A stretch of DNA of 64,000 nucleotides from an uncultured Clostridia bacterium (GTDB taxonomy: Bacteria > Bacillota > Clostridia > Oscillospirales > Ruminococcaceae). A model generated the notes under the pieces. That model worked only from the letters and a program-made list of their open reading frames with translations. It was not told where the DNA came from and made no database searches. Below are positions 8,713-54,777 of this stretch, piece by piece. A program made the position numbers and the translations under genes. Positions within the stretch are counted from its first letter, which is position 1. Every line of letters begins with the position of its first letter. Location: the NCBI GenBank assembly GCA_947625125.1, contig CANQNF010000006.1, positions 1 through 64,000 of the forward strand, read 5' to 3'.

Positions 8713-9032
8713 AAAATGCTTAAAATGCGTATTATCCACAAAAGTGCAATATAAATTTTTCGGCAGCAATTCCGAGAATTATTTATTGATTTAAACTACT
8801 AAAGTGATTTTTGCATTTATATCTCTGTGAATTTTAAGCATTTTAAGCACTATAGGGTCTAAAATGCTTAAAATGCGTATTATCCACAAAAGTGCAATAT
8901 AAATTTTTCGGCAGCAATGCCGAGAATTCTTTATTGATTTAAACTACTAAAGTGATTTTTGTATTTATATCTTTGTGAATTTTAAGCATTTTAAGCACGA
9001 TAGGGTCTAAAATGCTTAAAATGCGTATTATC
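8713..9032. repeat. 148-bp tandem repeat (2.2 copies) with terminal inverted repeats
   Basis: Copies start at 8713, 8861 and 9009, exactly 148 bases apart; the third is cut after about 24 bases. The first two are nearly identical. Each is framed by a 14-bp inverted repeat (8713-8726 with 8831-8844 in copy 1) followed by TATAGGGTCT. The unit is AT-rich, unlike the flanking genes, and has no open frame. A partial inverted copy (AATACGCATTATT) lies just before copy 1 at about 8693-8706. It sits between a tRNA terminator and the gene at 8528. It may be a MITE-like element or a structured RNA. Confidence 0.85.
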
Positions 9033-9102
9033 CATAAAACTCCGGAAGAGAGCTTCTACCCTCTATCCTCTATTCATCTATCTTCTAAAAAGTAAAAAGC
9101 AA

Positions 9103-9130: not shown

Positions 9131-9206
9131 TGGAGCGGATTACGAGGCTCGAACTCGCTACCTCCACCTTGGCAAGGTGGCGCTCTACCGGATGAGCTAA
9201 ATCCGC
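9131..9206 (-). tRNA. tRNA-Gly (GCC)
   Basis: It is 76 nt with encoded CCA (9131-9133). The acceptor GCGGATT pairs with AATCCGC. The anticodon stem CCACC/GGTGG holds the loop TTGCCAA, anticodon GCC. The T arm has TTCGAGC. It is last in the four-tRNA operon. Confidence 0.95.
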
Positions 9207-9296
9207 GGATAGTAGTTAGAGAATAGTTGTTAGTAGTTAGTATTTTTAAAAACATCTAACAACTAACAGCTAACAACTAAACAACTAAAAACTATT

Positions 9297-9372
9297 TGGT
9301 GCCTCCGATCGGAATTGAACCAATGACACGGGGATTTTCAGTCCCCTGCTCTACCAACTGAGCTACAGAGGC
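9297..9372 (-). tRNA. tRNA-Phe (GAA)
   Basis: It is 76 nt with encoded CCA (9297-9299). The acceptor GCCTCTG pairs with CGGAGGC. The anticodon stem GGGGA/TCCCC holds CTGAAAA, anticodon GAA. It is third in the operon. Confidence 0.95.
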
Positions 9373-40236: not shown

Positions 40237-40433
40237 AGGACCAAATACCGCACTTCTGAGTTTTAAGCCATAAAGCGCTGGCGGCTTAGCCGTCCGCAAG
40301 ACGCGCCCCGAATAGGCTTATGTGTCAGTAATTACAGTCGCCCGGTTTAAAATCGGACATACTCGGCCGAAATTACCTGCAAATGCAGCAACCTTCGGCT
40401 TCATCGCATATCTGTCGCAGTCACGCAAGGTAT

Positions 40434-51441: not shown

Positions 51442-51487
51442 TAAATTTGCCATCTTCATTGCTTTTTCATATTTTTCCCTTTCTTAG

Positions 51488-51624
51488 GCTCCCGGGGTCA
51501 AGCCGGCTCCGGGAGCGACAAACCCCTTTTTAAGGGGCTGAAACAGCCCTCTTCCAGCATTTTTTAGTGCGCTGTTTTCATTTTTTCCCTCTCGGAAGAC
51601 AGCCGGTCGCAAGGCCGGCTGTTT
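51488..51624 (+). terminator. Chain of hairpins downstream of htrA, including terminator-like stems
   Basis: Consecutive stems: 51488-51495/51509-51516; CCCCTT/AAGGGG at about 51523-51537; GGGCTG/CAGCCC at 51535-51549; and a stem of about 12 bp at 51595-51626 (ACAGCCGG/CCGGCTGT core) followed by TTTTCC. At least the last is an acceptable terminator. After it, 51627-51711 shows only G-rich sequence with no gene. Confidence 0.55.
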
Positions 51625-51711
51625 TCCTGTCTTGGGGGAGGAGAAAAGGGGGTGGGGGCGGCAGAAGTCGCGAGCGAGGGGCGGGAGGGCCTCGTTTAAT
51701 AAATTACACAC

Positions 51712-51857
51712 GCGCTTTAAATCGCTAAACCCGTTCTCAATACCCTTATGCTCGATTCTATTTCGGCATAGCTGCGCTTTAAATCGCTAAATCAATCTTC
51801 TACAATTCGACTTCCCAACTTCTCATATGTACTCATGCACTTTAAAGTACTAAAGCC
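51712..51857. repeat. Three short repeats at 62-63-base spacing
   Basis: GCGCTTTAAATCGCTAAA starts at 51712 and 51774, and a diverged copy GCACTTTAAAGTACTAAAG starts at 51837. The intervening sequences are only weakly alike. The rest of the gap to sdpR (51858-52127) is AT-rich and shows no gene or repeat. Confidence 0.55.
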
Positions 51858-52127
51858 GCACTACCACCCGTGCCGTCCGAACCGGCTGCATTTCAGAATA
51901 AAACCGGAGCGGAAAGCAATGTAATGCCATATCATGCAAAAAATTCATAAAGTAAGCGATGGTCGCTTCCCTTGCACCACCTCAAAAAGTTTCCCGAGGC
52001 ATGCCCTCCCCGCCCACAATTACGCAAAAAACGTAGGGGAAGCAGTTAGTGCTGCAAAACACCATGCAAAAAAATAATATAGGTAAATTTGTTTCCCTCA
52101 CACCCTCAAAAAATTTTTCATCCCCTC

Positions 52128-52183
52128 TTGACAGCGCCTGAAAAATGTGCTATACTTCAATTAACACTTAAGTTAAATGTTAA
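52128..52183 (+). promoter_or_regulatory. sdpR promoter and palindromic operator
   Basis: TTGACA (52128-52133), spacer 17, TATACT (52151-52156). Immediately downstream, TTAACA (52161-52166), N11, TGTTAA (52178-52183) forms a palindrome at the expected transcription start. This is a natural site for autorepression by the ArsR-type protein encoded next (inference). Confidence 0.7.
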
Positions 52184-52206
52184 TTATCACGAAAAGAGGC
52201 GGTTCA

Positions 52207-52476
52207 ATGTCGCTGCAATCGACTCTGCGGGCGCTCGCCGACCCGACGAGGCGGAAAATACTGGAAATTTTAAAGGGCGGTTCGATGTCGGCCGGGGAGA
52301 TCTCGGAGCGCTTCGAGATGACGGCGGCGGCGGTCTCGCGCCACCTCTCGGTCCTCAAAGACGCGGGCCTGATACGCGACCGGCGGGACGGAAAGTTCAT
52401 TTTTTACGAGCTCAACGCCTCGGTTCTGGAAGAAATTATGCTATGGATATCGAATTTAAAGGACCCCGGGGAGTAA
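52207..52476 (+). CDS. sdpR: ArsR-family repressor, SdpR-like
   Basis: The product has 89 residues. It is a winged-helix protein: LRALADPTRRKILEILKGGSM, the recognition helix region EISERFEMTAAAVSRHLSVLKDAGLI and the wing RRDGKFIFYEL. It lacks the Cys pairs of metal-sensing ArsR proteins, as in SdpR. In Bacillus SdpR represses the sdpRI operon and is sequestered by SdpI at the membrane. An SdpI-family gene lies 1.45 kb downstream on the same strand. The ATG at 52207 is used; an in-frame ATG at 52177 would overlap the operator. Confidence 0.8.
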   Translation: MSLQSTLRALADPTRRKILEILKGGSMSAGEISERFEMTAAAVSRHLSVLKDAGLIRDRRDGKFIFYELNASVLEEIMLWISNLKDPGE

Positions 52477-52486
52477 ATTTTTGGCA

Positions 52487-53860
52487 GAATTTGGCGGTTT
52501 CCGCCGGCTGTATAGTTTATTTTTGGCATTTTCTTCATGACCGGGCTGCCGTGAGGGTGGTAAAGAGGGCGCACGACCGGCTTTAAGAGAATCGCGGCAA
52601 GGAAAAATTAGGAGGTCTTGGGGAGAGCCCCGTGGCAAATTTGGCGATTTCCGCCGGTTGAATAGTTTATTTTGTGGCATTTTCTTCATGACCGGGCTGC
52701 CGCAAGGGGGCTAAAGAGGGCGCGCAGCTGACCTTAAGCGAATCGTGACAAGGAAAAATTAGGAAGTCTTGGGGAGAACCCCATGCAAATTTGGCGGTTT
52801 CCACCGGCTGAATTGTTTATTTTTGGCATTTTTTCACGACTGGGCTGCCGTGAGGGGGATAAAGAGGGCGCACGACTTGCCTTAAGCGAATTGCGGTAAG
52901 GAAAAATTAGGAAGTTTTAGGGAGAGCCCTGTGCAAATTTGGCGGGTTCCGGACGGTTGCATGGTTCCTTTTGGGGCATTTTGCCAGAATATGGCTGCCG
53001 ATAGGGCAAAGAGGGCGCACGAATAGCCTGAAACGAATTGTGGCAAGGCAAAATTTTGGGGAGAGTCCCGTGACAAATTTGCGGTATTCGGACGGCTGTA
53101 TGATTTATTTTTGGCATTTTCTTCATGACCGGGCTGCCATGAGGGGGGAAATAGGGTGCACGGATAGCCTTAAGAGAATTACGGTGAGGAAAAGTTTAGG
53201 AGATTTGAGGAGTAAGACCTACGAAAAATCTGAGGATTTCGTCCGGTTGTGCGGTTTATTTCTGGGGGCTTTCGTCATGGTCGGGGTATCATGCGGAGGA
53301 AAAAGGCCGCATCAATGGGCACGCGATTTGGTCTAATAATCATGGCGAGGTCAAGACTAATGGGCTTTGGGGTGTATGCATTCCGGAAAGTCTGCGGATT
53401 TCGTCCGGTTGTGCGGTTTATTTTTGGGGGATTTCGTCAAGGTCGGGGGTATCGTGCGGAGGGAAAGGGTCGCACCAATCGGAGCGCGCCTTGCCCTAAA
53501 AATCATGGCGAGGTCAAGACTAATGGGCTTCGGGGTGTAAGCATTACGAAAAACCTGCGGATTTCGTCCGGTTGTGCGGTTTATTTTGGGGCTCTTTCTC
53601 AGGGTCGGGGGGGTCGTGCGGAGGGAAAGGGGCGCACAAATGGGAGCGAGCTTTGCTCTAAAAAGTCATGGCGAGGTCAAGACTAATGGGCTTCGGGGTG
53701 TAAGCATTCCGGAAAACCTGCGGCGTTCGTCCGGTTGTGCGGTTTATTTTGGGGGATTTTGTCAGGGGCGGGGGTATCGTGCGGAGGGAAAAGGTCGTAC
53801 AAATGGGAGCGAGCTTTAGCCTGAAAGAATCTGTAGGTTCAGAATTTCAGAGGGGTTCGG
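52487..53860 (+). repeat. Array of nine tandem structured repeats between sdpR and sdpI
   Basis: Units start at 52487, 52637, 52787, 52935 and 53075 (subfamily A, 140-151 bases) and at 53226, 53387, 53551 and 53714 (subfamily B, 161-164 bases). All start with a variant of AAATTTGGCGG-T/ATTTC-GNCCGG followed by a GTTTATTTT stretch, so A and B are homologous. Stems recur with changed bases but kept pairing: GGGG/CCCC (52620-52631) is AGGG/CCCT in unit 3 (52919-52930). GTGCG/CGCAC in B2 and B3 is ATGCGG/CCGCAT in B1 (53291-53312). Frames across the array shift between units, so it is non-coding. Confidence 0.9.
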
Positions 53861-53929
53861 GGAGAAATGATGATACAAAATGTAAAAAAACATTTAATAT
53901 TACAAATAGTATAGAAAAGAGGAGCGTTT

Positions 53930-54586
53930 ATGTTCAAAAAATATCTGAAATTGATAATTATTACCGGATTGATCACACTTCTGCCAATGGTTTTCGGGCT
54001 AATCGTCTGGAATAAATTGCCTGAGCAGATGCCGTCGCACTTCGGAATGTCGGGCGAGGCGGACGGCTATTCGTCGCGCACGTTCATGGTTTTCGGGCTG
54101 CCGCTTCTGATGCTTTGCGCGCACGTCTTTTGCGTCGTCGTCACGCTCGTCGACCCGAAGCGCAAAAATATCGGCAAAAAGCCGCTGGCGCTGCTGTTTT
54201 GGATCATCCCGGCGGTCACGCTCATTACGTCGGCGATGGTCTACTGCCACGCTTTCGGCAGAAAGTTCAACGTTTCGGTGGTAATGTTTGTATTTTTAGG
54301 CATTTTATACATGCTTCTCGGCAACTGGCTGCCAAAGGTCGGGCACAACTACAGCTTCGGGATCAGGACCCCCTGGACCCTAAACGACGAGGAAAACTGG
54401 CATGCCACCCACCGTTTGGGCGGGAAAACCTTTACCGCGGCGGGACAGCTGATGATAATTTTAGCGCTTTTATGCATTAAATTCAGGACTGTGGCGCTCA
54501 TCGCCATGATCGCCGTGACAGTCGTGAGCGTCTGCGTTCCGCTCGCGTATTCGTATGTTTATTATCTGAAGCATGGGAGGGAGTGA
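53930..54586 (+). CDS. sdpI: SdpI-family membrane protein
   Basis: The product has 218 residues. Helices lie at about 7-27, 50-72, 88-108, 115-135 and two at 170-212. The first half has the DUF1648 pattern (LPEQMPSHFGMSGEADGYSSR). The second half has the SdpI pattern LLGNWLPKVGHNYSFGIRTP with WTLNDEENWHATHRLGGK. In Bacillus SdpI gives immunity to the SdpC killing factor and sequesters SdpR. GAGGAGCGTTT precedes the ATG. No SdpABC toxin genes are in the window, so the signal sensed is unknown. Confidence 0.9.
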   Translation: MFKKYLKLIIITGLITLLPMVFGLIVWNKLPEQMPSHFGMSGEADGYSSRTFMVFGLPLLMLCAHVFCVVVTLVDPKRKNIGKKPLALLFWIIPAVTLITSAMVYCHAFGRKFNVSVVMFVFLGILYMLLGNWLPKVGHNYSFGIRTPWTLNDEENWHATHRLGGKTFTAAGQLMIILALLCIKFRTVALIAMIAVTVVSVCVPLAYSYVYYLKHGRE

Positions 54587-54777
54587 GGGGGAATGGCCGA
54601 AGCGGCCACATTAAGAAAACAGAGGTCAGAAATCAGACGTCAGAATTTCAAGGTATCGCCTATGGCGACGATTTTAAAAATAAAAATAACGCGAGCGATT
54701 TAGACGCTCCCTGATGGGGAGAGATTAAAAGGTATTCCTCTCCCCCCCCATTTTAAAACCCCCGAAAGGAGCCTACT

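Follow-up and report, generated by a model that had tools for sequence, protein, structure and literature searches.

In Bacillus subtilis, the sdpRI operon encodes its own repressor together with an immunity protein that is integral to the membrane, according to the part of the source available (PMC6818787). The locus described here has the same gene pairing, an ArsR-type repressor gene followed by an SdpI-family gene, but differs from that account (PMC6818787, in part) in that the pair is split by 1.45 kb of repeats. For the repeats themselves, a described case for comparison is that of the staphylococcal STAR elements which, in the accessible portion of one report (PMC3532100), are intergenic direct repeats with stable locus-specific sequences and with locations that differ among species. 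The repeats described here are likewise intergenic direct repeats. However, STAR elements as presented in that portion (PMC3532100) are interspersed over many loci, whereas the unit described here was found at one locus only. Among the literature matches listed on the sdpR-sdpI operon or on intergenic tandem repeats, no title or beginning of an abstract describes repeats between sdpR and sdpI.

Tandem units between sdpR and sdpI

In the window (the whole stretch of 64,000 nucleotides that was analysed), the gap between sdpR and sdpI is filled by nine head-to-tail units without spacers at 52486-53875 (Table 1). The array begins 9 nt past the sdpR stop codon and its end is 54 nt short of sdpI. 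TRF gave two matches here, one at 52488-53201 with a period of 148 and 4.8 copies and the other at 53225-53817 with a period of 163 and 3.7 copies. We also used a sequence-only profile of the nine units, R1, which models no base pairs. It re-finds all nine units with E from 3e-38 to 1e-27 (window 52488-53870), as expected of a profile built from them. TRF and the profile thus bear out the preliminary description, which had placed nine spacerless units of 140-164 bases here; as cut by us they are 140-163 nt long.

The units form two subfamilies, type A (units 1-5, 140-151 nt) and type B (units 6-9, 163 nt). Identity is 68-87% inside A, 69-89% inside B, and 53-65% between the two. Units 1-3 are 84-87% identical, and units 4 and 5 are 68-78% identical to the remaining type A units. 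Similarly, units 6-8 are 84-89% identical and unit 9 matches them at 69-76%. Because the most similar pair is 89% identical, no unit copy is recent, as had been proposed, and this value together with the identity between A and B supports an old age of the repeats. The further claim that all units keep the same block order holds broadly. The exceptions are about 12 extra nt present in type B and absent in type A, unit 4, which is 8-11 nt shorter than the remaining type A units, and unit 9, where the 3' third aligns poorly. From the sequences, we infer that the array would have formed in two amplification rounds starting from one common unit.

Table 1. Positions of the array units, the flanking genes and sites, and other tandem arrays in this genome and in the sister genome G319. 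Positions are those of the window unless a locus (L) is named.
Feature	Position	Strand	Remarks
Sigma-70 promoter-like site of sdpR	52128..52156	+	TTGACA-17-TATACT, TG before -10; 11/12 consensus matches
Palindrome TTAACACTTAAGTTAAATGTTAA	52161..52183		Just past sdpR promoter; candidate SdpR operator
sdpR-like ArsR-family repressor gene	52207..52476	+	Pfam HTH_5 2.1e-16; adjoins sdpI in relatives
Unit 1, type A	52486..52636	+	151 nt; profile match
Unit 2, type A	52637..52785	+	149 nt; profile match
Unit 3, type A	52786..52933	+	148 nt; profile match
Unit 4, type A	52934..53073	+	140 nt; profile match
Unit 5, type A	53074..53223	+	150 nt; profile match
Unit 6, type B	53224..53386	+	163 nt; profile match
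Unit 7, type B	53387..53549	+	163 nt; profile match
Unit 8, type B	53550..53712	+	163 nt; profile match
Unit 9, type B, most diverged	53713..53875	+	3' end poorly matched; end set by unit length; profile match stops at 53870
AT-rich leader and ribosome-binding-like site 5' of sdpI	53876..53929	+	From sequence
sdpI-like membrane protein gene	53930..54586	+	Pfam SdpI 1e-20, DUF1648 2.3e-20
Own-genome array	8713-9039		2.2 copies of a 148-nt unit, 96% matching; four tRNA genes nearby
Own-genome array	L086 14163-14762		116-nt unit, 5.2 copies, 95% matches
G319 array (390-kb sample)	L098 15940-16184		83% matches; broken frames
G319 array (390-kb sample)	L101 7204-7934		92% matches; broken frames

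A promoter scan of 51450-54000 returned a single strong plus-strand site, the one listed for sdpR. A second, weaker promoter-like site on this strand lies further upstream (51778-51806, 9/12 matches), and two overlapping minus-strand promoter-like sites lie between the array and sdpI. We found no plus-strand terminator-like site inside the array, and one on the minus strand (53326-53307). Because the only strong plus-strand promoter-like site is before sdpR and the array holds no terminator-like site on that strand, a single transcript whose long gap between the genes is untranslated is the simplest inference. Judged from this promoter and terminator scan, sdpR, the array, and sdpI are probably carried on one mRNA. 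The palindrome TTAACACTTAAGTTAAATGTTAA is likely the operator of SdpR, and by eye 11 of 13 genus loci have a similar palindrome upstream of sdpR (in L063 the 75-nt view cuts it and L067 is without one).

Several other sequence elements were noted in the window. The octamer ACATTTAA at 53890-53897, in the gap between the array and sdpI, matches half of the relatives' palindrome, which may be chance in AT-rich DNA. Between htrA and sdpR there are three copies of the motif CTTTAAANNNCTAAA (51715, 51777, and 51840), out of six in 464 kb of this genome; 390 kb of the sister genome G319 have none. Low-complexity intergenic filler with words such as CTAACAACTA and CAGACGTCAGA is visible by eye at 9200-9300 and 54610-54650. 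An S10-Clostridia ribosomal protein leader (Rfam RF03136) is at 40335-40412 on the minus strand and speaks for an origin within the Clostridia.

To compare the locus in relatives, we searched for SdpI. Of 119 family genomes 51 have a match, as do 19 of the 31 genomes of the genus, with this genome counted in both. An SdpR match precedes SdpI in all 29 family loci compared, which are the best matches among the 50 other genomes with SdpI, weaker ones being left out; the estimated gap is -18 to +20 nt. A further 18 genus loci comprise 17 from the SdpI search of the genus genomes plus L004. In 13 of these both genes are side by side, sdpI starting 10-70 nt past the point where the sdpR alignment ends (10-19 nt in L004, L062, and L064). 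The remaining five have weak SdpI matches (E 1.7e-5 to 3.2e-4) and are without SdpR. In total, sdpR and sdpI are adjacent in 41 of 41 relatives' loci holding both (L004 counted once), with a longest gap of 67 nt. This agrees with the earlier statement that the two genes are usually close in other Firmicutes and supports the view that an array inside this normally tightly linked pair is unusually placed.

The 67-nt spacer is that of G319, the nearest relative by SdpI (62%). YhfC follows sdpI both there and in the window, and htrA, the upstream neighbour in the window, was not found on the 10-kb contig of G319. The leader between the array and sdpI has a weak, nonsignificant resemblance to the G319 spacer (44 of 500 shuffles were equally good). 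From the relatives' loci we conclude that the array arose in the lineage of this genome.

Strand composition of the array

The sense strand of the array has a G content of 0.337 and a C content of 0.173, giving a GC skew of 0.322. None of 2180 equally long windows sampled from 464 kb of this genome reaches this value, the largest skew among them being 0.26. Additionally, C is below G in every 78-nt stretch of this strand, which is the case in none of the 2180 windows. In the unit alignment, G makes up 47% of the 40 invariant columns, whose skew is 0.65. By contrast, the skew of the variable columns is 0.17. Invariant columns make up 19 of 52 G columns and 21 of 93 other columns (p 0.08). The best-conserved stretch of the units is around GTTTATTTT, and conserved columns are not clearly clustered, since the lowest-entropy 12-column window was equalled in 428 of 5000 permutations and the variance in 3735 of 5000.

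At the length of a single unit, such a skew is less unusual. A value of 0.30 is reached by 289 of 9186 windows of 150 nt and by 68 of 920 that are noncoding-like, with stops in all six frames. Because skewed noncoding-like windows of this size are not rare, one skewed founder unit suffices for the skew of the array. The differences between the A and B consensus sequences are nearly symmetric (A: C 13, G 11; B: C 11, G 16). With this symmetry and the smaller skew among the variable columns, there is no visible sign that the skew is maintained. We set aside a selected G-rich transcript as its cause: the skew is extreme at 1.4 kb, but not for a founder unit, and it is lower where the columns vary. 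Strand-biased deamination was also rejected, since within unit clusters C/T and A/G differences occur in similar numbers (11 against 13 among units 1-3, and 8 against 7 among units 6-8).

These observations bear on an alternative in which selection acts on the array as a spacer. Being long and C-poor on the sense strand, it would make sdpI later or weaker than sdpR and would also avoid Rho, giving a slower loop of repressor and immunity protein. Consistent with this, the array has been retained though it has no recent copies, the excess of G over C is unbroken along it, its invariant columns are G-rich, and just 5' of sdpI the scan gave no plus-strand promoter-like site. In B. subtilis, Rho has a specificity for C- and U-rich RNA, as stated in the part of the source at hand (PMC13323073), which fits the same idea. 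However, the bias is weaker at the variable columns and nearly absent from the A/B differences, G columns are not significantly more conserved than others, and a skewed founder unit is not rare. The idea that the strand is C-poor in order to avoid Rho, as has been described for B. subtilis genes (PMC13323073), is conceivable but not supported, and we consider the selected spacer as a whole unlikely.

Folding, copy searches and coding potential of the units

Another alternative sees structured regulatory RNAs in the units, such as sponges or small RNAs released by processing. The preliminary description had taken the array for structured RNA and had named a lack of base-pair support as a ground for refuting this. 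We folded one stretch of 136-147 nt per unit, which starts a few nt inside the unit and, in units 6-9, stops 12 nt before its end. Folding z-scores relative to shuffles were -0.76 to +1.77 for the nine sense-strand units and -0.51 to +1.44 for the antisense, so the units fold no better than shuffled sequence on either strand. The consensus fold has 11 pairs at -3.65 kcal/mol, and in three of these pairs some sequence has both partners changed. It does not beat column-shuffled alignments, which fold at least as well in 143 of 200 cases for the sense strand and in 39 of 200 for the antisense; for the subfamilies the counts are 51 of 200 (units 1-5 alone) and 49 of 200 (units 6-9 alone).

Two small hairpins can be drawn by eye, pairing columns 68-73 with 88-93 and 154-157 with 164-167. 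In these, 75.6% of cells pair and two of the 10 pairs are changed on both sides, which speaks for structure. However, the helices were hand-picked. Their double changes were equalled in 94 of 500 shuffles and their covariation score in 49 of 500, and sliding the register by +2 scores 0.231 compared to 0.239. The array has no Rfam match at the gathering score, and a lax search gave only E from 1.1 to 4.1. G-quadruplexes were rejected as well, because the two motifs on the plus strand equal what shuffles give (mean 1.98). Base-pair support is thus absent, with no convincing covariation among nine paralogues, a set of limited power in which a weak structure is possible. Together, these results argue against structured units, and regulatory RNAs of this kind appear improbable.

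We also considered an arrival or remnant of a mobile or dispersed element. In its favor, the units do not resemble the 67-nt spacer found in G319 (196 of 200 shuffles were equally good), so no source of the founder unit was found there. Against it, no inverted repeat was found in the array, and in this genome the unit profile matches only these nine places when 150 of 573 first-look candidates are scored and E up to 1 is allowed, with no second copy found by blastn. At E 0.001 the profile has no match in 30 other genus, 395 other family, and 393 other order genomes. These sets (31, 396, and 394 with this genome included) overlap one another. For the genus, 100 first-look candidates were scored; the family and order searches took seven per genome with stricter filters and recovered eight of the nine own units. 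Four weak matches (E 0.04-0.07) in three other genus genomes were taken as chance.

A blastn search with the whole array in 297 family genomes, with two candidates scored, gave besides itself one 30-nt match, in G074 (E 6.8e-4). We rejected this as a relative of the units because the surrounding sequence is unrelated by eye and the profile E is 0.013. There was no blastn match in phages and plasmids. For wide searches we used a two-unit pattern, which matches six places in the window. It has no match in IMG/VR and 10 single matches in 84,980 species genomes. The 10 are from unrelated lineages and one of them reaches the unit profile, at E 1.5. The phage, plasmid, IMG/VR, and species-genome collections may exclude this genome. 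As judged by these sequence searches, there is no convincing relative of the unit in genus, family, or order genomes, in phages, plasmids, or IMG/VR, or, with the pattern, in 84,980 species. A mobile origin is therefore highly unlikely.

The noncoding nature of the units, assumed from the start, is supported by several measures. Stop trinucleotides number 50 on the plus strand (51.9 in shuffles) and 46 on the minus strand (43.4). Differences between similar units are spread about evenly over the three codon positions, as judged from counts only. A search with five of the longer frames gave nothing in Pfam at E up to 1 and only two weak PHROG matches (E 0.28 and 0.48). Decayed protein-coding repeats are accordingly extremely unlikely: some frames are stop-free for 423-450 nt, but the unit lengths (151, 149, 148, 140, 150, 163) are mostly non-multiples of three and neither codon periodicity nor stop counts point to coding.

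Origin and role of the array

These data favor the idea that the array is an old, lineage-specific noncoding repeat of the minisatellite type, which acts, if at all, as a passive untranslated spacer between cistrons; we hold this to be probable. It is most likely an ordinary tandem-duplicated spacer that is unusual mainly by its location. One unit of about 150 nt between sdpR and sdpI would have been tandem-duplicated again and again, with subfamilies A and B amplified separately later, possibly via slippage or unequal crossing-over. The array would be transcribed from the SdpR-controlled promoter as an untranslated stretch of about 1.45 kb, if the genes are cotranscribed as predicted. The only likely effect would be passive, in that the added distance probably leads to less or later sdpI relative to sdpR.

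Other arrays place this reading in context. Two further tandem arrays with broken frames, intergenic by eye, are present in the 464-kb sample of this genome, and the sister genome has two with broken frames (Table 1). Such arrays are thus not rare in either genome. The gene just downstream of the L086 array may encode a glutamine amidotransferase or asparagine synthase, which its start resembles by eye. The sdp unit profile does not match the array at window 8713-9039. Compared to the two other own-genome arrays, which are 95-96% matching, the sdp array is more diverged and lies inside an operon; the L098 array of the sister genome (83%) is about as diverged. Genome-wide intergenic bloat was rejected as an explanation, since crude coding density in the samples is 0.88 in this genome and 0.87 in G319, which is no difference.

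The sdp array comes closest to bacterial intergenic minisatellites or VNTR loci. It is like these in its head-to-tail noncoding units, the lack of a detectable fold, its lineage-specificity, and the presence of other intergenic arrays in the genome. It differs in having diverged units and in separating a repressor gene from the partner gene within an operon. Two observations go against a passive spacer. About 1.4 kb of apparently unconstrained old DNA inside an operon has not been deleted, and the extreme G-over-C skew with G-rich invariant columns could reflect selection on a transcript. The persistence of the array without recent copies is puzzling.

The array serves as a controlled example of intergenic tandem repeats that resemble structured RNA to the eye and yet give no sign of structure. 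It is also conceivable, although quite doubtful, that selection has retained a long, C-poor, untranslated spacer made of repeats between the genes of a repressor and of its controlling membrane protein, where it would delay or damp the feedback loop that the two form. Under such selection, the array would be a simple instance of repeat number setting the timing of an operon.
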